Shown here: positions 9,408 through 64,000 of the stretch, in pieces | Layout of the letters: each line of letters opens with the position of its first letter | Numbering within the stretch: the stretch's first letter is position 1 | Origin: Cladorhizidae sp. MBARI D1340-BT2 | Taxonomy: Eukaryota; Porifera; Demospongiae; Poecilosclerida; Cladorhizidae | Direction of reading: 5' to 3' | Length of the DNA stretch: 64,000 bases | NCBI GenBank assembly: GCA_028752905.1 | Contig: JAQNBH010000132.1 | Coordinates: forward strand, 124,001 to 188,000 | Made by a program: the position numbers and the translations under genes | Notes under the pieces: generated by a model | Database searches by the model: none | Seen by the model: only the letters and a program-made list of their open reading frames with translations | Told to the model about the DNA's origin: nothing

Positions 9408-9477
9408 CCCCCTCCCCAGAATTTGTTGATTTTCCCCCTCCCCCAAATCTGCTGTTTTCCTCGTACCTAAAAGAACT

Positions 9478-9508
9478 TGTGTGTCTGTATGTATGTGTGT
9501 GTGTGTGC
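9478..9508. repeat. GT-rich microsatellite
   Basis: An imperfect TGTG/TATG run ends in GTGTGTGTGTGCAG, just before the start of the 37-bp array. The final pyrimidine-poor GTGTGCAG could in principle act as a 3' splice site, but nothing upstream supports an exon. Confidence 0.8.
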
Positions 9509-9631
9509 AGCTCTCCCTGTGAGCATCGCTGCTGATGGCCGTCTTCCTGCCCAGTGCCCCCACGGAGGCCTGATGGTGGAAGGAGAACTCAAGACCAAAG
9601 GTGCGAGACAAAAAGTGCGTGCGCCATGCTT

Positions 9632-11108
9632 GCCTGGACTCAAGGAGGAGAGCAGCCTCTGCATGCATGCCTGGACTCAAGGAGGAGAGCAGCCTCTGCA
9701 TGCATGCCTGGACTCAAGGAGGAGAGCAGCCTCTGCATGCATGCCTGGACTCAAGGAGGAGAGCAGCCTCTGCATGCATGCCTGGACTCAAGGAGGAGGG
9801 CGGCCTCTGCATGCTTGCCTGGACTCAAGGAGGAGAGCAGCCTCTGCATGCATGCCTGGACTCAAGGAGGAGAGCAGCCTCTGCATGCATGCCTGGACTC
9901 AAGGAGGAGGGCAGACTCTGCATGCTTGCCTGGACTCAAGGAGGAGAGCAGCCTCTGCATGCATGCCTGGACTCAAGGAGGAGAGCAGCCTCTGCATGCA
10001 TGCCTGGACTCAAGGAGGAGGGCGGCCTCTGCATGCTTGCCTGGACTCAAGGAGGAGGGCGGCCTCTGCATGCATGCCTGGACTCAAGGAGGAGGGCGGC
10101 CTCTGCATGCTTGCCTGGACTCAAGGAGGAGAGCAGCCTCTGCATGCATGCCTGGACTCAAGGAGGAGAGCAGCCTCTGCATGCATGCCTGGACTCAAGG
10201 AGGAGGGCGGCCTCTGCATGCATGCCTGGACTCAAGGAGGAGAGCAGCCTCTGCATGCATGCCTGGACTCAAGGAGGAGAGCAGCCTCTGCATGCATGCC
10301 TGGACTCAAGGAGGAGGGCAGCCTCTGCATGCTTGCCTGGACTCAAGGAGGAGGGCGGCCTCTGCATGCATGCCTGGACTCAAGGAGGAGAGCAGCCTCT
10401 GCATGCTTGCCTGGACTCAAGGAGGAGAGCAGCCTCTGCATGCATGCCTGGACTCAAGGAGGAGAGCAGCCTCTGCATGCATGCCTGGACTCAAGGAGGA
10501 GAGCAGCCTCTGCATGCATGCCTGGACTCAAGGAGGAGGGCGGCCTCTGCATGCATGCCTGGACTCAAGGAGGAGGGCGGCCTCTGCATGCATGCCTGGA
10601 CTCAAGGAGGAGGGCGGCCTCTGCATGCATGCCTGGACTCAAGGAGGAGGGCGGCCTCTGCATGCATGCCTGGACTCAAGGAGGAGGGCGGCCTCTGCAT
10701 GCTTGCCTGGACTCAAGGAGGAGAGCAGCCTCTGCATGCATGCCTGGACTCAAGGAGGAGGGCGGCCTCTGCATGCATGCCTGGACTCAAGGAGGAGGGC
10801 AGCCTCTGCATGCGTGCCTGGACTCAAGGAGGAGAGCAGCCTCTGCATGCATGCCTGGACTCAAGGAGGAGAGCAGCCTCTGCATGCATGCCTGGACTCA
10901 AGGAGGAGAGCAGCCTCTGCATGCATGCCTGGACTCAAGGAGGAGAGCAGCCTCTGCATGCGTGCCTGGACTCAAGGAGGAGAGCAGCCTCTGCATGCAT
11001 GCCTGGACTCAAGGAGGAGAGCAGCCTCTGCATGCATGCCTGGACTCAAGGAGGAGAGCAGCCTCTGCATGCATGCCTGAACTCAAGGAGGAGGGCAGCC
11101 TCTGCATG
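9632..11108 (+). repeat. 37-bp tandem array, about 40 copies, open in all three + frames
   Basis: The unit starts GCCTGGACTCAAGGAGGAG and continues AGCAGCCTCTGCATGCAT. Copies differ only by substitutions (GAGAGCAG/GAGGGCGG, GCATGCATGCC/GCATGCTTGCC/GCATGCGTGCC). The spacing stays at 37 bp throughout, with no indel seen. The unit contains no stop codon on the + strand. All three + frames therefore run through almost the whole array (about 508 to 551 codons), each encoding the same 37-residue repeat with parts such as PGLKEESSLCMHAWTQGG and LHACLDSRRRAAS. One frame can be extended back to an ATG at 9573. The openness follows from the unit sequence, so it is not evidence of a protein; a translated repeat cannot be excluded. 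Confidence 0.95.
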
Positions 11109-11308
11109 GAAGACACTGCACAGCAGCTGTGAGTGGTAGTGCAGATCATGACCCCTTTACTAGGGGCCTCTTTATGGCCCAAGGAACTAATCATTTTTAC
11201 TGGACGTGCAGTGCACCTGCATTATTATGAACCACATGTCGCCGAGTTTGAAATGGGCGTGGCTCCCAGGATTCTCAAAGCATATGATGTCATAATTGGT
11301 GTATTACA

Positions 11309-14535: not shown

Positions 14536-14588
14536 TAACCTTCTCTGGTGCTTCACCCAAACAAGTATTGCTAACAGCTGGTTGTAAG

Positions 14589-40509: not shown

Positions 40510-42992
40510 GACCAATATCATCTAATCACCTTTCCTATGTGCATATATATACACTATCCTATAGACGACTTAAATATCAATATCATCTAATCACCTTTCC
40601 CATGTGCATATACACTGTCCTATAGATGACTTAAATATCAATATCATCTAATCACATTTCCATGTGCATATATATACACTGTCCTATAGACGACTTAAAT
40701 ATCAAATCATCTAATCACCTTTCCCATGTGCATATACACTGTCCTATAGACGACTTAAATATCAATATCCTTTCCCATGTGCATATACACTGTCCTATAG
40801 ACGACTTAAATATCAATATCATCTAATCACCTTTCCCACGTGCATATACACTGTCCTATAGACAATTTAAATATCAATATCATCTAATTACCTTTCCCAT
40901 GTGCATATATATACACTGTCCTATAGACGACTTAAATATCAATATCATCTAATCACCTTTCCCATGTGCATATACACTGTCCTATAGACGACTTAAATAT
41001 CAATATCATCTAATCACCTTTCCCATGTATATACATACACTGTCCTATAGATGACTAAATATCAATATCATCTAATCACCTTTCCATGTGCATATACACT
41101 GTCCTATAGATGACTTAAATATCAATATCATCTAATCACCTTTGCCATGTGCATATACACTGTCCTATAGACGACTTAAATATCAATATCATCTAATCAC
41201 CTTTCCCACGTGCATATACACTGTCCTATAGACGACTTAAATATCAATATCATCTAATCACTTTTCCATGTGCATATACACTGTCCTATAGATGACTTAA
41301 ATATCAATATCATCTAATAACCTTTCCCATGTGCATATATATACACTGTCCTATAGATGACCAATATCATCTAATCACCTTTCCTATGTGCATATAATTA
41401 TATACACTGTCCTATAGACGACTTAAATATCAATATCATCTAATCACCTTTCCCATGTGCATATACACTGTCCTATAGATGACTTAAATATCAATATCAT
41501 CTAATCACCTTTCCCTTGTGTATATACACTGTCCTATAGACGACTTAAATATCAATATCATCTAATCACCTTTCCGATGTGCATATACACTGTCCTATAG
41601 ATGAATTAAATATCAATATCATCTAATCACCTTTCCCATGTGCATATACACTCTCCTATTATACACTGTCCTATAGATGACTTAAATATCAATATCATCT
41701 AATCACCTATCCCATGTGCAAATACACTGTCCTATAGACGACTTAAATATCAATATCATCTAATCATCTTTCCATGTGCATATACACTGTCCTATAGACG
41801 ACTTAAATATCAATATCATCTAATCACCTTTCCATGTGCATATACACTGTCCTATAGACGACTTAAATATCAATATCATCTAATCACCTTTCCCATGTGC
41901 ATATACACTGTCGTATAGACGACTTAAATATCAATATCATCTAATCACCTTTCCCATGTGCATATACACTGTCCTATAGATAACTTAAATATCAATATCA
42001 TCTAATCACCTTTCCATGTGCATATACACTGTCCTATAGACGACTTAAATATCAATAACATCTAATCACCTTTCCCATGTGCATATACACTGTCCTATAG
42101 ATGACTTAAATATCAATATCATCTAATCACCTTTCCCATGTGCATATACACTGTCCTATAGACGACTTAAATATCAATATCATCTAATCACCTTTCCATG
42201 TGCATATACACTGTCCTATAGACGACTTAAATATAAATATCATCTAATCACCTTTCCCATGTGCATATACACTGTCCTATAGACGACTTAAATATCAATA
42301 TCATCTAATCACCTTTCCCATGTGCATATACACTGTCCTATAGATAACTTAAATATCAATATCATCTAATCACCTTTCCATGTGCATATACACTGTCCTA
42401 TAGACGACTTAAATATCAATATCATCTAATCACCTTTCCCACGTGCATATACACTGTCCTATAGACAATTTAAATATCAATATCATGTAATTACCTTTCC
42501 CATGTGCATATATATACACTGTCCTATAGATGACCAATATCATCTAATCACCTTTCCTATGTGCATATATATACACTGTCCTATAGACGACTTAAATATG
42601 AATATCATCTAATCACCTTTCCCATGTGCATATACACTGTCCTATAGACGACTTAAATATCAATATATTCTAATCACCTTTCCCATGTATATACATACAC
42701 TGTCCTATAGATGACTAAATATCAATATCATCTAATCACCTTTCCCTTGTGCATATACACTGTCCTATAGACGACTTAAATATCAATATCATCTAATCAC
42801 TTTTCCATGTGCATATACACTGTCCTATAGATGACTTAAATATAAATATGATCTAATCACCTATCCCATGTGCAAATTCACTGTCCTATAGATGACTTAA
42901 ATATCAATATCATCTAATCACCTTTCCATGTGCATATACACTGTCCTATAGACAACTTAAATATCAATATCATCTAATCACCTTTCCCACGT

Positions 42993-43352
42993 TGTTAGAC
43001 CTTGTCCTACTAATTTGCTTATCCTACCCTTCTCCTGGTCCTAAACCTAGGTACATTGGCAGAGATAAGTTAAAATTATGATTATAGAACTGGTACAGAG
43101 AATCAAAAACAAATGTTACAGAACTGAGCTAACTCGACTGACGATCCCAGAGCGGGCTGCCTTTAAATAGGCTGGCCACACTCCAATGGGCATTTCCGTA
43201 TAAGGTATTAGTATAAGTCATGGGTGCGTGTGGTATAATAATTATAGTTATTTTAGTGCAAACGAGTGTCTGGTAAGTTCAATCGTGGCTTTCACCTTGT
43301 CCCATGGTTGTGGTCCCGGCTGTGGTCACGGCTGTTAGGCTGGGGCCTAACA
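42993..43352. mobile_element. Solo LTR, copy 1
   Basis: The 360-bp sequence begins TGTTAGACCTTG and ends GGGGCCTAACA, so it has TG...CA ends and short inverted termini (TGTTAG/CTAACA). It is flanked by CACGT on both sides (43353-43357 at the right). The same place in other units reads TTTCCCACGTGCATATAC, an intact empty site. A 5-bp duplication with these ends is what recombination between the LTRs of a Ty3-, BEL- or retrovirus-like element leaves. It contains a TTTAAATAGG box near the middle. No internal coding region is present. Confidence 0.8.
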
Positions 43353-44154
43353 CACGTGCATATACACTGTCCTATAGACAACTTAAATATCAATATCATC
43401 TAATCACCTTTCCCATGTGCATATACACTGTCCTATAGATGACTTAAATATCAATATCATCTAATCACCTATCCCATGTGCATATACACTGTCCTATAGA
43501 TAACTTAAATATCAATATCATCTAATCACCTTTCCCGCGTGCATATACACTGTCCTATAGATGACTTAAATATCAATATCATCTAATCACCTTTCCATGT
43601 GCATATACACTGTCCTATAGACGACATAAAAATATCAATATCATCTAATCACCTTTCCCATGTGCATATACACTGTCCTATAGATGACTTAAATATCAAT
43701 ATCATCTAATCACCTATCCCATGTGCATATACACTGTCCTATAGATAACTTAAATATCAATATCATCTAATCACCTTTCCCGCGTGCATATACACTGTCC
43801 TATAGATGACTTAAATATCAATATCATCTAATCACCTTTCCATGTGCATATACACTGTCCTATAGACGACATAAAAATATCAATATCATCTAATCACCTT
43901 TCCCATGTGCATATACACTGTCGTATAGATGATTCAAATATCAATATCATCTAATCACCTTTCCCATGTGCATATACACTGTCCTATAGATAACTTAAAT
44001 ATCAATATCATCTAATCACCTTTCCCGCGTGCATATACACTGTCCTATAGACAATTAAAATATCAATATCATCTAATCACCTTTCCCATGTGCATATATA
44101 TACACTGTCCTATAGATGACCAATATCATCTAATCACCTTTCCTATGTGCATAT

Positions 44155-44189
44155 GTGACAGGATTTGGGAAAAGGGACCTTATCGCGCA
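44155..44189 (+). repeat. Left terminal inverted repeat of the DUF7869 transposon
   Basis: 35 bp starting GTGACAGGATTTGGGAAAAG and ending CCTTATCGCGCA. It is an exact reverse complement of 47250-47284. Confidence 0.95.
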
Positions 44190-44477
44190 AAAATAAATAT
44201 ATGAGTTAGCTATACCATGTTGAAGCCCGATTTATAAGGTTCAAAATAAGCCTTGTATCAAGTCTAGAGCTGCTCTGACACCGAAGATATGAGCGAGAGC
44301 TTCAGGTTTAAGTTACTGGCTAAAACCGTGACTATTTCAATAACTGGGCGTTGTAGTTGACGACGAAAGCTAAAATGTTTACTCCGTAAATTACCGTGTT
44401 ACGAACGGGTGGGGCTACTTTTACCGGGAAAGAAACGACTGTAAATAGCTATAGCTGTTGTCTGACAAAGTGAAACT

Positions 44478-44582
44478 ATGGAACGCTGGCTAACTAAAAC
44501 TATAGAACGCTGGCTAACTAAGACTGTGGACTTCGAAGCAGACGCTGTCGAAAGTGGGGCGGTACTTTCGGGAAAGAAGTGA
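44478..44582 (+). CDS. Small + strand ORF in the DUF7869 transposon, function unknown
   Basis: An ATG-started frame of 34 codons lies on the strand opposite the main gene, in its 3' flank. It begins with an octad in tandem (MERWLTKT, IERWLTKT) followed by VDFEADAVESGAVLSGKK and TGA. A second frame overlapping its end continues GKEVIEDCEFPVIRLK and HPKQSGFVLG up to a GTAAGC that could be a splice donor. This may be a first exon of a second, frameshifted gene or chance. The WLTK-type start resembles the beginning of some transposase proteins, but I would not assign it. Confidence 0.25.
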   Translation: MERWLTKTIERWLTKTVDFEADAVESGAVLSGKK

Positions 44583-44808
44583 TCGAAGACTGTGAATTTC
44601 CAGTCATTCGCTTAAAGATTCATCCAAAACAGTCTGGATTTGTACTGGGAGTAAGCGCTAGCCAGGTCTAGCACTAGGCATAAATAAGTAGAGTATGTAC
44701 AGGCTAGCATTAATAATTATTAGCATACATTAAAAAAGGACAAATTTGCAATGTAGCTTCCTACTGTTAGTTATGTGGTGTGTTTGAGATTGAGATGAGA
44801 TTCATTGT

Positions 44809-46936
44809 TCAGAAGTTGGGGGTACTGCTCCTGCTTGTTGGTTTTGGATTTGGGGGTAATGGACAGGTAGTGTCTTTGTCAGAGTCAGGACAAAATTGCC
44901 TGATATTCTCATACAGGTACCATTGCCGTTCAAGAGTAAGACCCTTGGGATGTATTACAAGTGGCAAACCATTCTGTTGCGGTTTCCAAGTATGTTTGAA
45001 GAGTTTGATCTCCTGTTCCACTGTGTCACATCGGTCCCTCACGAACACACTGCCAGGAACACGGCTATCAAAGAAAAAGTGATGGAGTTTTTTAATGCCA
45101 ATGATCTTCTTGAAGTGAGTTGCAAAAAGAGTACTCCAATCGAATGTTGGTACAATGACTGCTTCATCTTCGGTTGCAACTAACTGAGCGAAGTTACAAT
45201 CTGCAGATAGATTGACAACACTTGCTAGGCCACTCAATGTCCCTATCTTCGTCCTTCTGTATTTCCTCTTCAGAAGACCAAAGCACCAATCTGGTGAGAA
45301 CTTTGTGTGCCCTACCACCAAAAATGACAACGTGATTTTGTTGTGCCTTCCTGTTAGAGTCCTCCACAACAAGTACTGCATCATACAATTGTTCTTGTTC
45401 TGTCCCGTGCAATTATCAGCATGGAGGAACACTTCTGTCTCTCCAAGTCCATGAGTCTCAAGGAAGTGATGAAGCTGGCTCACCACAACATTGGCGCCTT
45501 TGCCACAATCGCTGGCCTCATCAGTCAGGTAGTTCACCTGCCTCGGAATTCCTTCGCAGTGTACACCAAAGATACTGCACTTCCGAGGTACAAGAAAGTA
45601 CATGGGACCTGGCTGGAGAGGATCTGAAGGATAGTGCACCTATCAAAGAAGGTAACAATGTCATGTGAATAAATCTTTATTCCCCTACTATCCAAAGTAT
45701 ATCCAAAGTAGTATGATTTATATTTTTTGTCTCATGCAGTTATCAGTAACACTTCGTCTCTTCTGGGTAATGCATATCCAAGAATTACGGCACATGATTA
45801 AAAGAAACCAAGGAGTGCAGGTAAACCAACATAAATATCCTATGACACTCCCACACTTTTGTCAATAACTGAATGTTAAGGTGCTATTCTAGTGTGATAA
45901 TACTCTCAACACCCAAATAAATGACCCCTCTCTGACATTGTACACATTGTAGATACACAACCATGGGATAAGCTACTTAACACCCTGGTGAACATAGCTA
46001 GCACCTATAGGATTTATAGTAATACACACCATTTGTGTAATACATACCATTTGTGCGTAATCAAAGGAATAATGAGCTTTGATGTCTCTCGAATTTGCAG
46101 GTGTGAGTGCAGACAAAGGAGGTGGCTGGAATGAGCCATTGGTTGTGAAGAGAGATCTGATTGACCTCTTACATTCGTCAGATTTGGTCATGACTTCCTG
46201 TACATGACCCACAGAAAACTGTGCTGAACAGCTCCGTCCCCTCCACTTCAGGCAACCACAACCTGCAGACATGAACATTGTGATTGATTTTTCCTCGTCC
46301 AAGTCAGTCGGCCGATACTCTACTTCTGTATCACAAAGACTGGACAATCGTGCCAAGGCCAAATCGGTCTCTGATGGAGTTCCTGGTTCATCAAACTCGC
46401 CATGCAGATCATCAGTTTCACTATCATCCATTGCATCCATTACTCCCTGCACATCCATCTCATCATCTCTGTCACCCTGCTCATCCATTGCATCCATCTC
46501 ATCTTCTCTGTCACCATGTTCTTTAGATCCTTCCTTGTCAAGTTCTATATCAATTTATTTTATAATAATTATCTAAATCTTAATGAGAAATGAGGTAGCT
46601 ATCCATTGCATCCATTACTCCCTGCACATCCATCTCATCATCTCTGTCACCCTGCTCATCCATTGCATCCATCTCATCTTCTCTGTCACCATGTTCTTTA
46701 GATCCTTCCTTGTCAAGTTCTATATCAATTTATTTTATAATAATTATCTAAATCTTAATGAGAAATGAGGTAGCTACCATTGTCTACTTACCTTCAAATG
46801 GAGGATCATTGTCCTCATCATCCTCATTGGTAAAATACTGCTCAATTACATCTAGCAGTGCCAGCTGGTCTCCTGAGGAATAGCTGCTAAAAGAATTAAT
46901 AGCCTTAGCTGCCTCATTACTACTTATCCAAGCCAT
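44809..46936 (-). CDS. DUF7869-type putative transposase, three exons, ~490 aa
   Basis: Exon 1 is 46936-46792 (ATG; MAWISSNEAAKAIN start; donor GAAG|GTAAGT). Exon 2 is 46544-46048 (acceptor GATATAG|AACTT; donor CAAATG|GTATGT). Exon 3 is 45639-44809 (acceptor TTTGATAG|GTGCAC; stop TGA). The joins keep frame: 145 + 497 bases give 214 codons, then 276 more. Residues 36-90 are acidic with MDAMD-type repeats. A cysteine cluster (CGCLKWRGRSC; C144, C146, C154, C173) may bind zinc. From about residue 206 the DUF7869 pattern follows: AHYSFDYAQM|VHYPSDPLQP, CSIFGVHCEGIPRQVNYL, FLHADNCTGQNKNN, GHTKFSPDWCFGLLKRKYRR, LVATEDEAVIVPTFDW, IKKLHHFFFDSRVPGSVF. D210, D289 and D331 lie where an RNase H-fold transposase would hold its catalytic acids; that is inference. 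Only 37 residues separate C173 from D210, shorter than I recall for relatives, so an internal deletion is possible. Confidence 0.72.
46426..46775 (-). repeat. Exact 175-bp tandem duplication across the exon 2 acceptor
   Basis: 46426-46600 and 46601-46775 appear identical. Each copy contains the 3' splice site and about the first 119 bases of exon 2 (the acidic MDAMDEQGDRDDEM part). The copy nearer exon 1 reads into TAA soon after the junction, so a full protein needs splicing to the farther acceptor at 46544. The identity suggests a very recent event or an assembly artefact. Confidence 0.9.
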
Positions 46937-47249
46937 TGGCAGCTGGCAGTGTTTATTTATGTGGTTCCATAACAACCGCAGTATGCCGCGCCGTATGCTA
47001 ATTGGAGAATGACGTAATGCTAATTGAACTTTTACCGCGAAGTCACTCCGTATACGCGTTATTCTACGCAATGGAAAACTTGACCACAGGTTTTCGAACT
47101 GTTATTTTGACCTGTTCTGGACTGAACCTAGACGCCAAACTTGGCACAGAGGTAAAGGAAAGATTCTAGAGAGTGCTAAAGTAAAAAATATATATATAAG
47201 AAAAAGTGACCCATGCATACTTTTTGTGCTATAACTCAAAATCATTTTC

Positions 47250-47284
47250 TGCGCGATAAGGTCCCTTTTCCCAAATCCTGTCAC
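47250..47284 (-). repeat. Right terminal inverted repeat of the DUF7869 transposon
   Basis: 35 bp ending CCCTTTTCCCAAATCCTGTC plus AC, exact reverse complement of 44155-44189. It lies upstream of the minus-strand gene, so any promoter for that gene should be in or near it. Confidence 0.95.
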
Positions 47285-50200
47285 ATATATATACACTGTC
47301 CTATAGACGACTTAAATATCAATAACATCTAATCACCTTTCCCATGTGCATATACACTGTCCTATCGACGACTTAAATATAAATATCATCTAATCACCTT
47401 TCCCATGTGCATATACACTGTCCTATAGATGACTTAAATATCAATATCATCTAATCACCTATCCCATGTGCATATACACTGTCCTATAGATAACTTAAAT
47501 ATCAATATCATCTAATCACCTTTCCCGCGTGCATATACACTGTCCTATAGATGACTTAAATATCAATATCATAATCACCTTTCCATGTGCATATACACTG
47601 TCCTATAGACGACATAAAAATATCAATATCATCTAATCACCTTTCCCGCGTGCATATACACTGTCCTATAGACAATTAAAATATCAATATCATCTAATCA
47701 CCTTTCCCATGTGCATATATATACACTGTCCTATAGATGACCAATATCATCTAATCACCTTTCCTATGTGCATATATATACACTATCCTATAGACGACTT
47801 AAATATCAATAACATCTAATCACCTTTCCCATGTGCATATACACTGTCCTATCGACGACTTAAATATAAATATCATCTAATCACCTTTCCCATGTGCATA
47901 TACACTGTCCTATAGACGACTTAAATATCAATATCATCTAATCACCTTTCCCATGTGCATATACACTGTCCTATAGATGACTTAAATATCAATATCATCT
48001 AATCACCTTTACCATGTGCATATACACTGTCCTATTATACACCATCCTATAGATGACTTAAATATAAATATCATCTAATCACCTTTCCATGTGCATATAC
48101 ACTGTCCTATAGACAACTTAAATATCAATATCATCTAATCACCTTTCCATGTGCATATATACTGTCCTATAGACGACTTAAATATCAATATCATCTAATC
48201 ACCTTTCCCACGTGCATATACACTGTCCTATAGACAACTTAAATATCAATATCATCTAATCACCTTTCCCATGTGCATATACACTCCTATAGATGACTTA
48301 AATATCAATATCATCTAATCACCTTTCCATGTGCATATACACTGTCCTATAGACGACTTAAATATCAATAACATCTAATCACCTTTCCCATGTGCATATA
48401 CACTCCTATAGATGACTTACATATCAATATCATCTAATCACCTTTCCATGTGCATATATACTGTCCTATAGACGACTTAAATATCAATATAATCTAATCA
48501 CCTTTCCCATGCGCATATATATACACTTTCCTATAGATGACTTAAATATCAATATCATCTAATCACGTTTCCTATGTGGATATACACTGTCCTATAGATG
48601 ACTTAAATATCAATATCATCTAATCACCTTTCCATGTGCATATACACTGTCCTATAGACAACATAATTATCAATATCATCTAATCACCTTTCCCACGTGC
48701 ATATACACTGTCCTATAGACAACTTAAATATCAATATCATCTAATCACCTTTCCATGTACATATACACTGTCCTATAGACAACGTAAATATCAATATCAT
48801 CTAATCACCTTTCCATGTGCATATACACTGTCGTATAGATGACTTAAATATCAATATCATCTAATCACCTTTCCCATGTGCATATACACTTTATTATAGA
48901 TGACTTAAATATCAATATCATCTAATCACCTTTCCATGTGCATATACACTGTCCTATAGACGACTTAAATATCAATATCATCTAATCACCTTTCCAATGT
49001 ATATATGTACACTGTCCTATAGATGACTTAAATATCAATATCATCTAATCGCCTTTCCCATGTGCATATACACTGTCCTATAGATGACTTAAATATCAAT
49101 ATCATCTAATCACCTTTCCATGTGCATATACACTGTCCTATAGGCTACTTAAATAGCAATATAATCTAATCACCTTTCCCATGCACATATATATACACTT
49201 TCCTATAGATGACTTAAATATCAATATCATCTAATCACCTTTCCATGTGCATATACACTGTCCTATAGACAACTTAATTATCAATATCATCTAATCACCT
49301 TTCCCATGTGCATATACACTGTCCTATAGATGACTTAAATATCAATATCATCTAATCACCTTTGCCATGTGCATATACACTGTCCTATAGACGACTTAAA
49401 TATCAATATCATCTAATCACCTTTCCCACGTGCATATACACTGTCCTATAGACGACTTAAATATCAATATCATCTAATCACTTTTCCATGTGCATATACA
49501 CTGTCCTATAGATGACTTAAATATCAATATCATCTAATAACCTTTCCCATGTGCATATATATACACTGTCCTATAGATGACCAATATCATCTAATCACCT
49601 TTCCTATGTGCATATAATTATATACACTGTCCTATAGACGACTTAAATATCAATATCATCTAATCACCTTTCCCATGTGCATATACACTGTCCTATAGAT
49701 GACTTAAATATCAATATCATCTAATCACCTTTCCCACGTGCATATACACTGTCCTATAGACGACTTAAATATCAATATCATCTAATCACTTTTCCATGTG
49801 CATATACACTGTCCTATAGATGACTTAAATATCAATATCATCTAATAACCTTTCCCATGTGCATATATATACACTGTCCTATAGATGACCAATATCATCT
49901 AATCACCTTTCCTATGTGCATATAATTATATACACTGTCCTATAGACGACTTAAATATCAATATCATCTAATCACCTTTCCCATGTGCATATACACTGTC
50001 CTATAGATGACTTAAATATCAATATCATCTAATCACCTTTCCCTTGTGTATATACACTGTCCTATAGACGACTTAAATATCAATATCATCTAATCACCTT
50101 TCCGATGTGCATATACACTGTCCTATAGATGAATTAAATATCAATATCATCTAATCACCTTTCCCATGTGCATATACACTCTCCTATTATACACTGTCCT

Positions 50201-51520
50201 ATAGATGACTTAAATATCAATATCATCTAATCACCTATCCCATGTGCAAATACACTGTCCTATAGACGACTTAAATATCAATATCATCTAATCATCTTTC
50301 CATGTGCATATACACTGTCCTATAGACGACTTAAATATCAATATCATCTAATCACCTTTCCATGTGCATATACACTGTCCTATAGACGACTTAAATATCA
50401 ATATCATCTAATCACCTTTCCCATGTGCATATACACTGTCGTATAGACGACTTAAATATCAATATCATCTAATCACCTTTCCCATGTGCATATACACTGT
50501 CCTATAGATAACTTAAATATCAATATCATCTAATCACCTTTCCATGTGCATATACACTGTCCTATAGACGACTTAAATATCAATAACATCTAATCACCTT
50601 TCCCATGTGCATATACACTGTCCTATAGATGACTTAAATATCAATATCATCTAATCACCTTTCCCATGTGCATATACACTGTCCTATAGACGACTTAAAT
50701 ATCAATATCATCTAATCACCTTTCCATGTGCATATACACTGTCCTATAGACGACTTAAATATAAATATCATCTAATCACCTTTCCCATGTGCATATACAC
50801 TGTCCTATAGACGACTTAAATATCAATATCATCTAATCACCTTTCCCATGTGCATATACACTGTCCTATAGATAACTTAAATATCAATATCATCTAATCA
50901 CCTTTCCATGTGCATATACACTGTCCTATAGACGACTTAAATATCAATATCATCTAATCACCTTTCCCACGTGCATATACACTGTCCTATAGACAATTTA
51001 AATATCAATATCATGTAATTACCTTTCCCATGTGCATATATATACACTGTCCTATAGATGACCAATATCATCTAATCACCTTTCCTATGTGCATATATAT
51101 ACACTGTCCTATAGACGACTTAAATATGAATATCATCTAATCACCTTTCCCATGTGCATATACACTGTCCTATAGACGACTTAAATATCAATATATTCTA
51201 ATCACCTTTCCCATGTATATACATACACTGTCCTATAGATGACTAAATATCAATATCATCTAATCACCTTTCCCTTGTGCATATACACTGTCCTATAGAC
51301 GACTTAAATATCAATATCATCTAATCACTTTTCCATGTGCATATACACTGTCCTATAGATGACTTAAATATAAATATGATCTAATCACCTATCCCATGTG
51401 CAAATTCACTGTCCTATAGATGACTTAAATATCAATATCATCTAATCACCTTTCCATGTGCATATACACTGTCCTATAGACAACTTAAATATCAATATCA
51501 TCTAATCACCTTTCCCACGT

Positions 51521-51880
51521 TGTTAGACCTTGTCCTACTAATTTGCTTATCCTACCCTTCTCCTGGTCCTAAACCTAGGTACATTGGCAGAGATAAGTTA
51601 AAATTATGATTATAGAACTGGTACAGAGAATCAAAAACAAATGTTACAGAACTGAGCTAACTCGACTGACGATCCCAGAGCGGGCTGCCTTTAAATAGGC
51701 TGGCCACACTCCAATGGGCATTTCCGTATAAGGTATTAGTATAAGTCATGGGTGCGTGTGGTATAATAATTATAGTTATTTTAGTGCAAACGAGTGTCTG
51801 GTAAGTTCAATCGTGGCTTTCACCTTGTCCCATGGTTGTGGTCCCGGCTGTGGTCACGGCTGTTAGGCTGGGGCCTAACA
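51521..51880. mobile_element. Solo LTR, copy 2
   Basis: Same 360-bp sequence and same CACGT flanks as the copy at 42993. By eye it is identical. It was duplicated together with the surrounding satellite block, so it is not an independent insertion. Confidence 0.8.
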
Positions 51881-54800
51881 CACGTGCATATACACTGTCC
51901 TATAGACAACTTAAATATCAATATCATCTAATCACCTTTCCCATGTGCATATACACTGTCCTATAGATGACTTAAATATCAATATCATCTAATCACCTAT
52001 CCCATGTGCATATACACTGTCCTATAGATAACTTAAATATCAATATCATCTAATCACCTTTCCCGCGTGCATATACACTGTCCTATAGATGACTTAAATA
52101 TCAATATCATCTAATCACCTTTCCATGTGCATATACACTGTCCTATAGACGACATAAAAATATCAATATCATCTAATCACCTTTCCCATGTGCATATACA
52201 CTGTCCTATAGATGACTTAAATATCAATATCATCTAATCACCTATCCCATGTGCATATACACTGTCCTATAGATAACTTAAATATCAATATCATCTAATC
52301 ACCTTTCCCGCGTGCATATACACTGTCCTATAGATGACTTAAATATCAATATCATCTAATCACCTTTCCATGTGCATATACACTGTCCTATAGACGACAT
52401 AAAAATATCAATATCATCTAATCACCTTTCCCATGTGCATATACACTGTCGTATAGATGATTCAAATATCAATATCATCTAATCACCTTTCCCATGTGCA
52501 TATACACTGTCCTATAGATAACTTAAATATCAATATCATCTAATCACCTTTCCCGCGTGCATATACACTGTCCTATAGACAATTAAAATATCAATATCAT
52601 CTAATCACCTTTCCCATGTGCATATATATACACTGTCCTATAGATGACCAATATCATCTAATCACCTTTCCTATGTGCATATATATACACTGTCCTATAG
52701 ACGACTTAAATATCAATAACATCTAATCACCTTTCCCATGTGCATATACACTGTCCTATCGACGACTTAAATATAAATATCATCTAATCACCTTTCCCAT
52801 GTGCATATACACTGTCCTATAGATGACTTAAATATCAATATCATCTAATCACCTATCCCATGTGCATATACACTGTCCTATAGATAACTTAAATATCAAT
52901 ATCATCTAATCACCTTTCCCGCGTGCATATACACTGTCCTATAGATGACTTAAATATCAATATCATCTAATCACCTTTCCATGTGCATATACACTGTCCT
53001 ATAGACGACATAAAAATATCAATATCATCTAATCACCTTTCCCGCGTGCATATACACTGTCCTATAGACAATTAAAATATCAATATCATCTAATCACCTT
53101 TCCCATGTGCATATATATACACTGTCCTATAGATGACCAATATCATCTAATCACCTTTCCTATGTGCATATATATACACTATCCTATAGACGACTTAAAT
53201 ATCAATAACATCTAATCACCTTTCCCATGTGCATATACACTGTCCTATCGACGACTTAAATATAAATATCATCTAATCACCTTTCCCATGTGCATATACA
53301 CTGTCCTATAGACGACTTAAATATCAATATCATCTAATCACCTTTCCCATGTGCATATACACTGTCCTATAGATGACTTAAATATCAATATCATCTAATC
53401 ACCTTTACCATGTGCATATACACTGTCCTATTATACACCATCCTATAGATGACTTAAATATAAATATCATCTAATCACCTTTCCATGTGCATATACACTG
53501 TCCTATAGACAACTTAAATATCAATATCATCTAATCACCTTTCCATGTGCATATATACTGTCCTATAGACGACTTAAATATCAATATCATCTAATCACCT
53601 TTCCCACGTGCATATACACTGTCCTATAGACAACTTAAATATCAATATCATCTAATCACCTTTCCCATGTGCATATACACTCCTATAGATGACTTAAATA
53701 TCAATATCATCTAATCACCTTTCCATGTGCATATACACTGTCCTATAGACGACTTAAATATCAATAACATCTAATCACCTTTCCCATGTGCATATACACT
53801 CCTATAGATGACTTACATATCAATATCATCTAATCACCTTTCCATGTGCATATATACTGTCCTATAGACGACTTAAATATCAATATAATCTAATCACCTT
53901 TCCCATGCGCATATATATACACTTTCCTATAGATGACTTAAATATCAATATCATCTAATCACGTTTCCTATGTGGATATACACTGTCCTATAGATGACTT
54001 AAATATCAATATCATCTAATCACCTTTCCATGTGCATATACACTGTCCTATAGACAACATAATTATCAATATCATCTAATCACCTTTCCCACGTGCATAT
54101 ACACTGTCCTATAGACAACTTAAATATCAATATCATCTAATCACCTTTCCATGTACATATACACTGTCCTATAGACAACGTAAATATCAATATCATCTAA
54201 TCACCTTTCCATGTGCATATACACTGTCGTATAGATGACTTAAATATCAATATCATCTAATCACCTTTCCCATGTGCATATACACTTTATTATAGATGAC
54301 TTAAATATCAATATCATCTAATCACCTTTCCATGTGCATATACACTGTCCTATAGACGACTTAAATATCAATATCATCTAATCACCTTTCCAATGTATAT
54401 ATGTACACTGTCCTATAGATGACTTAAATATCAATATCATCTAATCGCCTTTCCCATGTGCATATACACTGTCCTATAGATGACTTAAATATCAATATCA
54501 TCTAATCACCTTTCCATGTGCATATACACTGTCCTATAGGCTACTTAAATAGCAATATAATCTAATCACCTTTCCCATGCACATATATATACACTTTCCT
54601 ATAGATGACTTAAATATCAATATCATCTAATCACCTTTCCATGTGCATATACACTGTCCTATAGACAACTTAATTATCAATATCATCTAATCACCTTTCC
54701 CATGTGCATATACACTGTCCTATAGATGACTTAAATATCAATATCATCTAATCACCTTTGCCATGTGCATATACACTGTCCTATAGACGACTTAAATATC

Positions 54801-57297
54801 AATATCATCTAATCACCTTTCCCACGTGCATATACACTGTCCTATAGACGACTTAAATATCAATATCATCTAATCACTTTTCCATGTGCATATACACTGT
54901 CCTATAGATGACTTAAATATCAATATCATCTAATAACCTTTCCCATGTGCATATATATACACTGTCCTATAGATGACCAATATCATCTAATCACCTTTCC
55001 TATGTGCATATAATTATATACACTGTCCTATAGACGACTTAAATATCAATATCATCTAATCACCTTTCCCATGTGCATATACACTGTCCTATAGATGACT
55101 TAAATATCAATATCATCTAATCACCTTTCCCTTGTGCATATACACTGTCCTATAGACGACTTAAATATCAATATCATCTAATCACCTTTCCGATGTGCAT
55201 ATACACTGTCCTATAGATGAATTAAATATCAATATCATCTAATCACCTTTCCCATGTGCATATACACTGTCCTATTATACACTGTCCTATAGATGACTTA
55301 AATATCAATATCATCTAATCACCTTTCCCATGTGCATATACACTGTCCTATAGACGACTTAAATATCAATATCATCTAATCACCTTTCCCATGTATATAC
55401 ATACACTGTCCTATAGATGACTAAATATCAATATCATCTAATCACCTTTCCATGTGCATATACACTGTCCTATAGATGACTTAAATATCAATATCATCTA
55501 ATCACCTTTGCCATGTGCATATACACTGTCCTATAGACGACTTAAATATCAATATCATCTAATCACCTTTCCCACGTGCATATACACTGTCCTATAGACG
55601 ACTTAAATATCAATATCATCTAATCACTTTTCCATGTGCATATACACTGTCCTATAGATGACTTAAATATCAATATCATCTAATAACCTTTCCCATGTGC
55701 ATATATATACACTGTCCTATAGATGACCAATATCATCTAATCACCTTTCCTATGTGCATATAATTATATACACTGTCCTATAGACGACTTAAATATCAAT
55801 ATCATCTAATCACCTTTCCCATGTGCATATACACTGTCCTATAGATGACTTAAATATCAATATCATCTAATCACCTTTCCCTTGTGTATATACACTGTCC
55901 TATAGACGACTTAAATATCAATATCATCTAATCACCTTTCCGATGTGCATATACACTGTCCTATAGATGAATTAAATATCAATATCATCTAATCACCTTT
56001 CCCATGTGCATATACACTCTCCTATTATACACTGTCCTATAGATGACTTAAATATCAATATCATCTAATCACCTATCCCATGTGCAAATACACTGTCCTA
56101 TAGACGACTTAAATATCAATATCATCTAATCATCTTTCCATGTGCATATACACTGTCCTATAGACGACTTAAATATCAATATCATCTAATCACCTTTCCA
56201 TGTGCATATACACTGTCCTATAGACGACTTAAATATCAATATCATCTAATCACCTTTCCCATGTGCATATACACTGTCGTATAGACGACTTAAATATCAA
56301 TATCATCTAATCACCTTTCCCATGTGCATATACACTGTCCTATAGATAACTTAAATATCAATATCATCTAATCACCTTTCCATGTGCATATACACTGTCC
56401 TATAGACGACTTAAATATCAATAACATCTAATCACCTTTCCCATGTGCATATACACTGTCCTATAGATGACTTAAATATCAATATCATCTAATCACCTTT
56501 CCCATGTGCATATACACTGTCCTATAGACGACTTAAATATCAATATCATCTAATCACCTTTCCATGTGCATATACACTGTCCTATAGACGACTTAAATAT
56601 AAATATCATCTAATCACCTTTCCCATGTGCATATACACTGTCCTATAGACGACTTAAATATCAATATCATCTAATCACCTTTCCATGTGCATATACACTG
56701 TCCTATAGACGACTTAAATATCAATATCATCTAATCACCTTTCCCACGTGCATATACACTGTCCTATAGACAATTTAAATATCAATATCATGTAATTACC
56801 TTTCCCATGTGCATATATATACACTGTCCTATAGATGACCAATATCATCTAATCACCTTTCCTATGTGCATATATATACACTGTCCTATAGACGACTTAA
56901 ATATGAATATCATCTAATCACCTTTCCCATGTGCATATACACTGTCCTATAGACGACTTAAATATCAATATATTCTAATCACCTTTCCCATGTATATACA
57001 TACACTGTCTTATAGATGACTAAATATCAATATCATCTAATCACCTTTCCCTTGTGCATATACACTGTCCTATAGACGACTTAAATATCAATATCATCTA
57101 ATCACTTTTCCATGTGCATATACACTGTCCTATAGATGACTTAAATATAAATATGATCTAATCACCTATCCCATGTGCAAATTCACTGTCCTATAGATGA
57201 CTTAAATATCAATATCATCTAATCACCTTTCCATGTGCATATACACTGTCCTATAAACAACTTAAATATCAATATCATCTAATCACCTTTCCCACGT

Positions 57298-57657
57298 TGT
57301 TAGACCTTGTCCTACTAATTTGCTTATCCTACCCTTCTCCTGGTCCTAAACCTAGGTACATTGGCAGAGATAAGTTAAAATTATGATTATAGAACTGGTA
57401 CAGAGAATCAAAAACAAATGTTACAGAACTGAGCTAACTCGACTGACGATCCCAGAGCGGGCTGCCTTTAAATAGGCTGGCCACACTCCAATGGGCATTT
57501 CCGTATAAGGTATTAGTATAAGTCATGGGTGCGTGTGGTATAATAATTATAGTTATTTTAGTGCAAACGAGTGTCTGGTAAGTTCAATCGTGGCTTTCAC
57601 CTTGTCCCATGGTTGTGGTCCCGGCTGTGGTCACGGCTGTTAGGCTGGGGCCTAACA
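57298..57657. mobile_element. Solo LTR, copy 3
   Basis: Same 360 bp with CACGT on both sides. The satellite to its left differs from copy 2 by small changes (CTATAAACAAC just upstream) and by one fewer unit. Confidence 0.8.
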
Positions 57658-57965
57658 CACGTGCATATACACTGTCCTATAGACAACTTAAATATCAATA
57701 TCATCTAATCACCTTTCCCATGTGCATATACACTGTCCTATAGACGACTTAAATATCAATATCATCTAATCACTTTTCCATGTGCATATACACTGTCCTA
57801 TAGATGACTTAAATATAAATATGATCTAATCACCTATCCCATGTGCAAATTCACTGTCCTATAGATGACTTAAATATCAATATCATCTAATCACCTTTCC
57901 ATGTGCATATACACTGTCCTATAGACAACTTAAATATCAATATCATCTAATCACCTTTCCCACGT

Positions 57966-58325
57966 TGTTAGACCTTGTCCTACTAATTTGCTTATCCTAC
58001 CCTTCTCCTGGTCCTAAACCTAGGTACATTGGCAGAGATAAGTTAAAATTATGATTATAGAACTGGTACAGAGAATCAAAAACAAATGTTACAGAACTGA
58101 GCTAACTCGACTGACGATCCCAGAGCGGGCTGCCTTTAAATAGGCTGGCCACACTCCAATGGGCATTTCCGTATAAGGTATTAGTATAAGTCATGGGTGC
58201 GTGTGGTATAATAATTATAGTTATTTTAGTGCAAACGAGTGTCTGGTAAGTTCAATCGTGGCTTTCACCTTGTCCCATGGTTGTGGTCCCGGCTGTGGTC
58301 ACGGCTGTTAGGCTGGGGCCTAACA
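57966..58325. mobile_element. Solo LTR, copy 4 (local 668-bp duplication)
   Basis: Same 360 bp and CACGT flanks, only 668 bp after copy 3. LTR plus about five satellite units were duplicated in tandem, evidence of recent unequal exchange within the array. Confidence 0.8.
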
Positions 58326-61300
58326 CACGTGCATATACACTGTCCTATAGACAACTTAAATATCAATATCATCTAATCACCTTTCCCATGTGCATATACA
58401 CTGTCCTATAGATGACTTAAATATCAATATCATCTAATCACCTATCCCATGTGCATATACACTGTCCTATAGATAACTTAAATATCAATATCATCTAATC
58501 ACCTTTCCCGCGTGCATATACACTGTCCTATAGATGACTTAAATATCAATATCATCTAATCACCTTTCCATGTGCATATACACTGTCCTATAGACGACAT
58601 AAAAATATCAATATCATCTAATCACCTTTCCCATGTGCATATACACTGTCCTATAGATGACTTAAATATCAATATCATCTAATCACCTATCCCATGTGCA
58701 TATACACTGTCCTATAGATAACTTAAATATCAATATCATCTAATCACCTTTCCCGCGTGCATATACACTGTCCTATAGATGACTTAAATATCAATATCAT
58801 CTAATCACCTTTCCATGTGCATATACACTGTCCTATAGACGACATAAAAATATCAATATCATCTAATCACCTTTCCCATGTGCATATACACTGTCGTATA
58901 GATGATTCAAATATCAATATCATCTAATCACCTTTCCCATGTGCATATACACTGTCCTATAGATAACTTAAATATCAATATCATCTAATCACCTTTCCCG
59001 CGTGCATATACACTGTCCTATAGACAATTAAAATATCAATATCATCTAATCACCTTTCCCATGTGCATATATATACACTGTCCTATAGACGACCAATATC
59101 ATCTAATCACCTTTCCTATGTGCATATATATACACTGTCCTATAGACGACTTAAATATCAATAACATCTAATCACCTTTCCCATGTGCATATACACTGTC
59201 CTATCGACGACTTAAATATAAATATCATCTAATCACCTTTCCCATGTGCATATACACTGTCCTATAGATGACTTAAATATCAATATCATCTAATCACCTA
59301 TCCCATGTGCATATACACTGTCCTATAGATAACTTAAATATCAATATCATCTAATCACCTTTCCCGCGTGCATATACACTGTCCTATAGATGACTTAAAT
59401 ATCAATATCATCTAATCACCTTTCCATGTGCATATACACTGTCCTATAGACGACATAAAAATATCAATATCATCTAATCACCTTTCCCGCGTGCATATAC
59501 ACTGTCCTATAGACAATTAAAATATCAATATCATCTAATCACCTTTCCCATGTGCATATATATACACTGTCCTATAGATGACCAATATCATCTAATCACC
59601 TTTCCTATGTGCATATATATACACTATCCTATAGACGACTTAAATATCAATAACATCTAATCACCTTTCCCATGTGCATATACACTGTCCTATCGACGAC
59701 TTAAATATAAATATCATCTAATCACCTTTCCCATGTGCATATACACTGTCCTATAGACGACTTAAATATCAATATCATCTAATCACCTTTTCCATGTGCA
59801 TATACACTGTCCTATAGATGACTTAAATATCAATATCATCTAATCACCTTTACCATGTGCATATACACTGTCCTATTATACACCATCCTATAGATGACTT
59901 AAATATAAATATCATCTAATCACCTTTCCATGTGCATATACACTGTCCTATAGACAACTTAAATATCAATATCATCTAATCACCTTTCCATGTGCATATA
60001 TACTGTCCTATAGACGACTTAAATATCAATATCATCTAATCACCTTTCCCACGTGCATATACACTGTCCTATAGACAACTTAAATATCAATATCATCTAA
60101 TCACCTTTCCCATGTGCATATACACTCCTATAGATGACTTAAATATCAATATCATCTAATCACCTTTCCATGTGCATATACACTGTCCTATAGACGACTT
60201 AAATATCAATAACATCTAATCACCTTTCCCATGTGCATATACACTCCTATAGATGACTTACATATCAATATCATCTAATCACCTTTCCATGTGCATATAT
60301 ACTGTCCTATAGACGACTTAAATATCAATATAATCTAATCACCTTTCCCATGCGCATATATATACACTTTCCTATAGATGACTTAAATATCAATATCATC
60401 TAATCACGTTTCCTATGTGGATATACACTGTCCTATAGATGACTTAAATATCAATATCATCTAATCACCTTTCCATGTGCATATACACTGTCCTATAGAC
60501 AACATAATTATCAATATCATCTAATCACCTTTCCCACGTGCATATACACTGTCCTATAGACAACTTAAATATCAATATCATCTAATCACCTTTCCATGTA
60601 CATATACACTGTCCTATAGACAACGTAAATATCAATATCATCTAATCACCTTTCCATGTGCATATACACTGTCGTATAGATGACTTAAATATCAATATCA
60701 TCTAATCACCTTTCCCATGTGCATATACACTTTATTATAGATGACTTAAATATCAATATCATCTAATCACCTTTCCATGTGCATATACACTGTCCTATAG
60801 ACGACTTAAATATCAATATCATCTAATCACCTTTCCAATGTATATATGTACACTGTCCTATAGATGACTTAAATATCAATATCATCTAATCGCCTTTCCC
60901 ATGTGCATATACACTGTCCTATAGATGACTTAAATATCAATATCATCTAATCACCTTTCCATGTGCATATACACTGTCCTATAGGCTACTTAAATAGCAA
61001 TATAATCTAATCACCTTTCCCATGCACATATATATACACTTTCCTATAGATGACTTAAATATCAATATCATCTAATCACCTTTCCATGTGCATATACACT
61101 GTCCTATAGACAACTTAATTATCAATATCATCTAATCACCTTTCCCATGTGCATATACACTGTCCTATAGATGACTTAAATATCAATATCATCTAATCAC
61201 CTTTGCCATGTGCATATACACTGTCCTATAGACGACTTAAATATCAATATCATCTAATCACCTTTCCCACGTGCATATACACTGTCCTATAGACGACTTA

Positions 61301-64000
61301 AATATCAATATCATCTAATCACTTTTCCATGTGCATATACACTGTCCTATAGATGACTTAAATATCAATATCATCTAATAACCTTTCCCATGTGCATATA
61401 TATACACTGTCCTATAGATGACCAATATCATCTAATCACCTTTCCTATGTGCATATAATTATATACACTGTCCTATAGACGACTTAAATATCAATATCAT
61501 CTAATCACCTTTCCCATGTGCATATACACTGTCCTATAGATGACTTAAATATCAATATCATCTAATCACCTTTCCCTTGTGCATATACACTGTCCTATAG
61601 ACGACTTAAATATCAATATCATCTAATCACCTTTCCGATGTGCATATACACTGTCCTATAGATGAATTAAATATCAATATCATCTAATCACCTTTCCCAT
61701 GTGCATATACACTGTCCTATTATACACTGTCCTATAGATGACTTAAATATCAATATCATCTAATCACCTATCCCATGTGCAAATACACTGTCCTATAGAC
61801 GACTTAAATATCAATATCATCTAATCATCTTTCCATGTGCATATACACTGTCCTATAGACGACTTAAATATCAATATCATCTAATCACCTTTCCATGTGC
61901 ATATACACTGTCCTATAGACGACTTAAATATCAATATCATCTAATCACCTTTCCCATGTGCATATACACTGTCGTATAGATGACTTAAATATCAATATCA
62001 TCTAATCACCTTTCCCATGTGCATATACACTGTCCTATAGATAACTTAAATATCAATATCATCTAATCACCTTTCCATGTGCATATACACTGTCCTATAG
62101 ACGACTTAAATATCAATAACATCTAATCACCTTTCCCATGTGCATATACACTGTCCTATAGATGACTTAAATATCAATATCATCTAATCACCTTTCCCAT
62201 GTGCATATACACTGTCCTATAGACGACTTAAATATAAATATCATCTAATCACCTTTCCCATGTGCATATACACTGTCCTATAGACGACTTAAATATCAAT
62301 ATCATCTAATCACCTTTCCCATGTGCATATACACTGTCCTATAGATAACTTAAATATCAATATCATCTAATCACCTTTCCATGTGCATATACACTGTCCT
62401 ATAGACGACTTAAATATCAATATCATCTAATCACCTTTCCATGTGCATATACACTGTCCTATAGAAGACTTAAATATCAATATCATCTAATCACCTTTCC
62501 CACGTGCATATACACTGTCCTATAGACAATTTAAATATCAATATCATGTAATTACCTTTCCCATGTGCATATATATACACTGTCCTATAGATGACCAATA
62601 TCATCTAATCACCTTTCCTATGTGCATATATATACACTGTCCTATAGACGACTTAAATATCAATATCATCTAATCACCTTTCCCATGTGCATATACACTG
62701 TCCTATAGACGACTTAAATATCAATATATTCTAATCACCTTTCCCATGTATATACATACACTGTCCTATAGATGACTAAATATCAATATCATCTCATCAC
62801 CTTTCCCTTGTGCATATACACTGTCCTATAGACGACTTAAATATCAATATCATCTAATCACTTTTCCATGTGCATATACACTGTCCTATAGATGACTTAA
62901 ATATAAATATCATCTAATCACCTATCCCATGTGCAAATTCACTGTCCTATAGATGACTTAAATATCAATATCATCTAATCACCTTTCCATGTGCATATAC
63001 ACTGTCCTATAGACAACTTAAATATCAATATCATCTAATCACCTTTCCCACGTGCATATACACTGTCCTATCGACGACTTAAATATAAATATCATCTAAT
63101 CACCTTTCCCATGTGCATATACACTGTCCTATAGATGACTTAAATATCAATATCATCTAATCACCTATCCCATGTGCATATACACTGTCCTATAGATAAC
63201 TTAAATATCAATATCATCTAATCACCTTTCCCGCGTGCATATACACTGTCCTATAGATGACTTAAATATCAATATCATCTAATCACCTTTCCATGTGCAT
63301 ATACACTGTCCTATAGACGACATAAAAATATCAATATCATCTAATCACCTTTCCCGCGTGCATATACACTGTCCTATAGACAATTAAAATATCAATATCA
63401 TCTAATCACCTTTCCCATGTGCATATATATACACTGTCCTATAGATGACCAATATCATCTAATCACCTTTCCTATGTGCATATATATACACTGTCCTATA
63501 GACGACTTAAATATCAATAACATCTAATCACCTTTCCCATGTGCATATACACTGTCCTATCGACGACTTAAATATAAATATCATCTAATCACCTTTCCCA
63601 TGTGCATATACACTGTCCTATAGACGACTTAAATATCAATATCATCTAATCACCTTTCCCATGTGCATATACACTGTCCTATAGATGACTTAAATATCAA
63701 TATCATCTAATCACCTTTACCATGTGCATATACACTGTCCTATTATACACCATCCTATAGATGACTTAAATATAAATATCATCTAATCACCTTTCCATGT
63801 GCATATACACTGTCCTATAGACAACTTAAATATCAATATCATCTAATCACCTTTCCATGTGCATATATACTGTCATATAGACGACTTAAATATCAATATC
63901 ATCTAATCACCTTTCCCACGTGCATATACACTGTCCTATAGACAACTTAAATATCAATATCAACTAATCACCTTTCCCATGTGCATATACACTCCTATAG

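Follow-up and report, generated by a model that had tools for sequence, protein, structure and literature searches.

A recently inserted transposon with a DUF7869 gene, probably of the Sola2 group, in a cladorhizid sponge genome

A DUF7869 element interrupts a satellite array

The stretch of the Cladorhizidae sp. MBARI D1340-BT2 genome analysed here (64,000 nucleotides, positions 124,001 to 188,000 of contig JAQNBH010000132.1; hereafter the window) carries a 3,130-base-pair (bp) element at 44155–47284, which contains a gene for a DUF7869 protein and is bounded by terminal inverted repeats (TIRs). The two 35-bp TIRs, beginning 5′-GTGACAGGATTTGGG... (left, 44155–44189, plus strand; right, 47250–47284, minus strand), are identical at 35/35 positions, as an earlier note made from the letters alone had described, and form the longer of only two inverted repeats of at least 25 bp in the window. 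Immediately outside them stands a target site duplication, ATAT (44151–44154 and 47285–47288), and beyond it a 61-bp satellite array that the element splits into a left part (40513–44154), the pre-insertion target, and a right part reaching the window end (47289–64000). Between GTGC and ACACT, the satellite units hold (AT)2 in 231 cases, (AT)4 in 30 and no other number; insertion into an (AT)4 unit with a 4-bp duplication yields the junctions observed in the window.

The gene lies on the minus strand and has three exons with GT/AG introns that join in frame to encode 490 amino acids (aa): exon 1 with the ATG (46936–46792), exon 2 (46544–46048) with a cysteine-rich N-terminal stretch and, past a deletion junction, D210 in the motif SFDYAQ, and exon 3 (45639–44809) with D289, D331, the stop codon and the bulk of the match to PF25273, the DUF7869 profile (E = 2e-18, 67.1 bits against a curated cut-off of 26). 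This gene structure, including the three aspartates, is as the earlier note had proposed. Compared with full-length homologues and 720-aa sister copies, the window protein has lost 230 aa in frame within exon 2 (junction at 46183–46189, minus strand): the stretch matching about residues 58–291 of P0018, a 645-aa Halichondria panicea protein that served as the deletion reference, is present in ten homologues (615–770 aa) and in the sister copies and is absent here. A 175-bp tandem duplication (two copies, 46426–46775), comprising the last part of intron 1 and the first part of exon 2, gives rise to two candidate exon 2 acceptors, of which the one nearer exon 3 is needed for the 490-aa frame and the other leads to an early stop. 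Four sisters with the same deletion and without this duplication measure 2,943–2,955 bp, so that the duplication accounts for the greater length of the window copy. The element had been called a complete young DNA transposon; it is young and mobile, but, given the loss and the duplication just described, it is not complete.

Satellite DNA makes up most of the window, with a second array of a 53-bp unit in more than 400 copies at 14536–36660. At 9471–11136, three frames of one strand stay open over long distances; the underlying sequence is a 37-bp tandem repeat, of which the open frames are probably an artefact.

Near-identical copies indicate recent movement

A search of the 857-megabase (Mb) assembly with the 75-bp element end returned 108 candidates, of which 40 were scored, all identical to the end of the window copy; the concern that the TIRs might be found only at this locus is thereby removed. 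We examined 27 copies, including that of the window, of which 20 showed both ends and seven showed no right end in the sequence examined. The flanks of the two-ended copies were ATAT/ATAT in 19 and TTAT/ATAT in L012; grouped by eye, these flanks define 14 distinct sites, 13 of them with an exact ATAT duplication. Empty sites set the size of the duplication at 4 bp: the flanks of L009, when joined by a single ATAT, match 180/180 bases at 98–99% identity in 40 of 40 scored places. This target is itself repetitive, with 648 candidate places in the genome. Together, the broken satellite, the further copies and the empty sites rule out a chance inverted repeat, and the split array and the genome-wide recurrence of copies bear out the claim of a mobile unit.

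Sixteen copies were translated with the splice sites of the window copy, four more that miss a splice landmark being left out. An intact 720-aa frame is present in L012, L020 and L021 (the last two share flanks), the 490-aa frame in the window copy and L024, and the same deletion followed by a stop at 405 aa in L011, L017 and L023, while the remaining eight stop earlier, at 81 to 591 aa. Pairs among 12 aligned copies are 98.2–100% identical, and the window copy and L024 99.9%. Because the five deletion derivatives lie at distinct sites and are 99.8–100% identical, we conclude that movement was recent. Separately, L025, L027, L043 and L044 on contig C2 (20–30 Mb) share one flank and probably arose when the DNA around them was duplicated rather than through independent insertions.

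Three conserved aspartates lie in an integrase-like predicted core

D210, D289 and D331 correspond to the three aspartates that are invariant in an alignment of 25 chosen bacterial and eukaryotic-type proteins. In two AlphaFold models, of P0018 and of one bacterial protein (the latter compared with VIA-align only), they fall inside an integrase/transposase-like core. These predicted structures support an RNase H-type core around the three residues, which had been suggested from their spacing, and they speak against the alternative of a fold that lacks one. DUF7869 is thus very probably the core of a DDD transposase, in agreement with the role proposed for the protein at the outset. A sequence search of the PDB gave no match up to E = 10, Pfam found the DUF alone in six proteins (two eukaryotic-type and four from the bacterial loci described below), and NCBIfam returned nothing near its cut-off for the same six, the strongest hint of a transposase scoring 13 bits (E = 0.037) where 250 are required. 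In the literature searched, the string GQNKN led to unrelated subjects only.

Further DUF7869 groups share ends and targets

Searching the genome with the PF25273 profile gave 655 candidates, of which 150 were scored, all above the cut-off; the profile was found in none of 14 control genomes. When 30 of these loci with 1.5-kilobase (kb) flanks were examined for inverted repeats against eight shuffles each, strong repeats emerged at seven (L062, L063 and one group comprising L070 and L072–L075; 46–80 bits versus at most 28 when shuffled), five (L049, L051, L053, L059 and L064) exceeded their shuffles by 2–4 bits, and 18 were not above them. At the seven strong loci, the ends start with GTGAC and are preceded by AATT, ATAT or AAAT. 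The AAAT/AAAT flanks of L074 constitute a non-palindromic 4-bp duplication, while L070 has ATAT/ATGT. Around L049–L052, outer ends (GTGAACGCC...) were found further out, flanked once by AATT/AATT and three times by ATAT/ATAT. Three further DUF7869 groups, plus this one, have 5′-GTGA TIRs and AWWT 4-bp duplications, which are exact in 10 of the 11 insertions with both ends seen (exception, L070). A 2-bp TA duplication was considered and rejected, as it fits ATAT but not AAAT/AAAT (L074) or AATT/AATT (L063, A1). The pairing of TIRs with DUF7869 genes, as claimed for the window element, thus recurs in its sister copies and in other groups, whose proteins, judged by L049, L061 (single end seen) and L063, share 23–37% identity with the window family.

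Most bacterial relatives carry inverted repeats

Scanning bacteria at one genome per species reduced 51 pattern matches to 11 loci, with 32–41% identity, in Desulfobacterales, Thiomargarita, a Legionellales metagenome-assembled genome (MAG), Nitrospirales, Verrucomicrobia and others. Seven of the 11 lie between inverted repeats that exceed all 20 shuffles; among the four without strong repeats, L088 is at a contig end, L090 has a broken frame, L092 covers residues 370–604 only, and in L089 the first ATG is preceded by 382 bases. L090 belongs to a MAG of a sponge-symbiont Cycloclasticus and may represent either transfer or assembly contamination. The bacterial repeats are GG-ended and, as read by eye, have AWWT at the left flank in 7/7, with exact 4-bp duplications at L085 (AATT), L086 (AAAT) and L093 (ATTT). 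Six of these bacterial genomes were searched and gave one match each.

In a tree of 31 proteins, seven bacterial proteins group together (support 100/98), and L063 of the sponge genome stands beside them at 88/92, a placement that is unsure. Among the relatives that carry a species name, sponge proteins are the nearest, and most named DUF7869 hits, from sponges, coral, priapulid, sea urchin, snail and fish, are labelled ‘uncharacterized protein’ or ‘hypothetical protein’. A host gene is ruled out, since terminal repeats bound DUF7869 genes both in several groups of the sponge genome and in bacteria. The viral_contigs set gave 13 pattern matches and no confirmed relative, and viral vectors as carriers were accordingly dropped.

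A probable cut-and-paste family and its alternatives

We consider it likely that the window element is an internally deleted copy, recently inserted, from a cut-and-paste family in which DUF7869 is a DDD transposase, most likely, judging from its features, of the Sola2 group. In such a family, the N-terminal part of the transposase would bind the GTG-ended TIRs, its RNase H-type core would excise the element, and the excised element would be integrated at AWWT sites with a stagger of 4 bp. Since the protein encoded by the window copy is missing much of what precedes the core, this copy was probably moved by the transposase of full-length sisters.

Several observations weigh against this interpretation. 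A full frame is missing in 13 of the 16 translated family copies. In a 73-row alignment, only the second aspartate is invariant, the first and third being kept in at least 90% (exceptions include P0092 and P0048). Foldseek gave no PDB match to the P0018 model at E ≤ 1e-3, the best, at 1.3e-3, being TnsB. Of the 30 DUF7869 loci of the sponge genome, 23 have no strong inverted repeat in their 1.5-kb flanks, although four of the 23 had both ends further out. Among the seven bacterial elements, four have inexact 4-bp flanks, agreeing at three of four bases in L083, L087 and L091 and at two of four in L084.

The earlier note had suggested a superfamily not yet named. DUF7869 elements of bacteria and animals might indeed form their own cut-and-paste superfamily, sharing with Sola2 no more than the target duplication and the DDD triad; the database results for the six proteins favour this, as does the literature searched, in which no paper named DUF7869 or PF25273. 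We nonetheless regard it as unlikely, since the published descriptions of Sola and Sola2 give the same combination of a DDD transposase and 4-bp duplications of the AT-rich form AWWT (PMC10741241, PMC3627910). Likewise unlikely is a further-reaching reading, in which a superfamily unnamed in databases would include insertion sequences of bacteria as well as transposons of animals, all with AWWT targeting and with TIRs ending in GTG or GGG, and its animal and bacterial lineages would have been exchanged between domains.

It is rather improbable that the truncated 490-aa protein has been retained to repress the full-length transposase: five near-identical copies share the deletion and the frame is open in two of them, L024 and that of the window, but the three others stop at 405 aa, and deletion derivatives can spread without any such function. 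An accessory or passenger role for DUF7869, with the transposase supplied by other elements, is very improbable, for although a deletion derivative such as the window copy need not encode its own enzyme, DUF7869 is the sole gene recognised in the copies read, has the DDD residues and an integrase-like predicted fold, and is paired with terminal repeats likewise in bacteria and in several groups of the sponge genome.

If DUF7869 is a transposase, the ‘uncharacterized’ DUF7869 proteins of sponges and other animals are to be read as transposases or their remnants. The bacterial relatives with inverted repeats, which lack an NCBIfam model in the four tested, offer a prokaryotic counterpart for study, and recent movement together with intact 720-aa frames makes an assay feasible.

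Comparison with known transposon systems

The predicted RNase H-like core resembles that of retroviral integrase and Mos1, and its three acidic residues follow the order of the integrase triad; it differs in having DDD instead of DDE and in showing only 6–15% identity among the matches listed. Mariners duplicate TA, in contrast to the 4-bp AWWT found here. Sola3 elements duplicate TTAA, and this trait, shared by Kolobok and piggyBac, was seen at 0 of the 25 sites read. Kolobok and piggyBac are alike in their 4-bp AT-rich duplication, but it is described as TTAA there (PMC9587614), as opposed to ATAT, AATT or AAAT in the sponge genome.

Closest in description is Sola2. Repbase assigns membership of this group by PSI-BLAST convergence with known Sola2 transposases (PMC4455052); among the longer relatives, five proteins were inspected for a Sola2 label and none was so labelled. 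The dictyostelid elements differ in their 12–13-bp or 21-bp TIRs, 888-aa transposase and Fanzor1 cargo (PMC3627910), whereas the family described here has 35-bp TIRs, 720 aa and no recognised second gene. As far as these sources describe them, Sola elements in general have DDD transposases and 4-bp duplications and are present in bacteria and metazoans (PMC10741241), and those of Sola2 have TIRs, like the window element, and AT-rich 4-bp duplications, namely AWWT in Dictyostelium fasciculatum and ATAT, AAAT and ATTT in Polysphondylium pallidum (PMC3627910). Within the literature searched, AWWT and target site duplications are named together in a single paper, one of these two. Because a DDD transposase and AWWT 4-bp duplications match this printed description, DUF7869 is probably a Sola2-type transposase.
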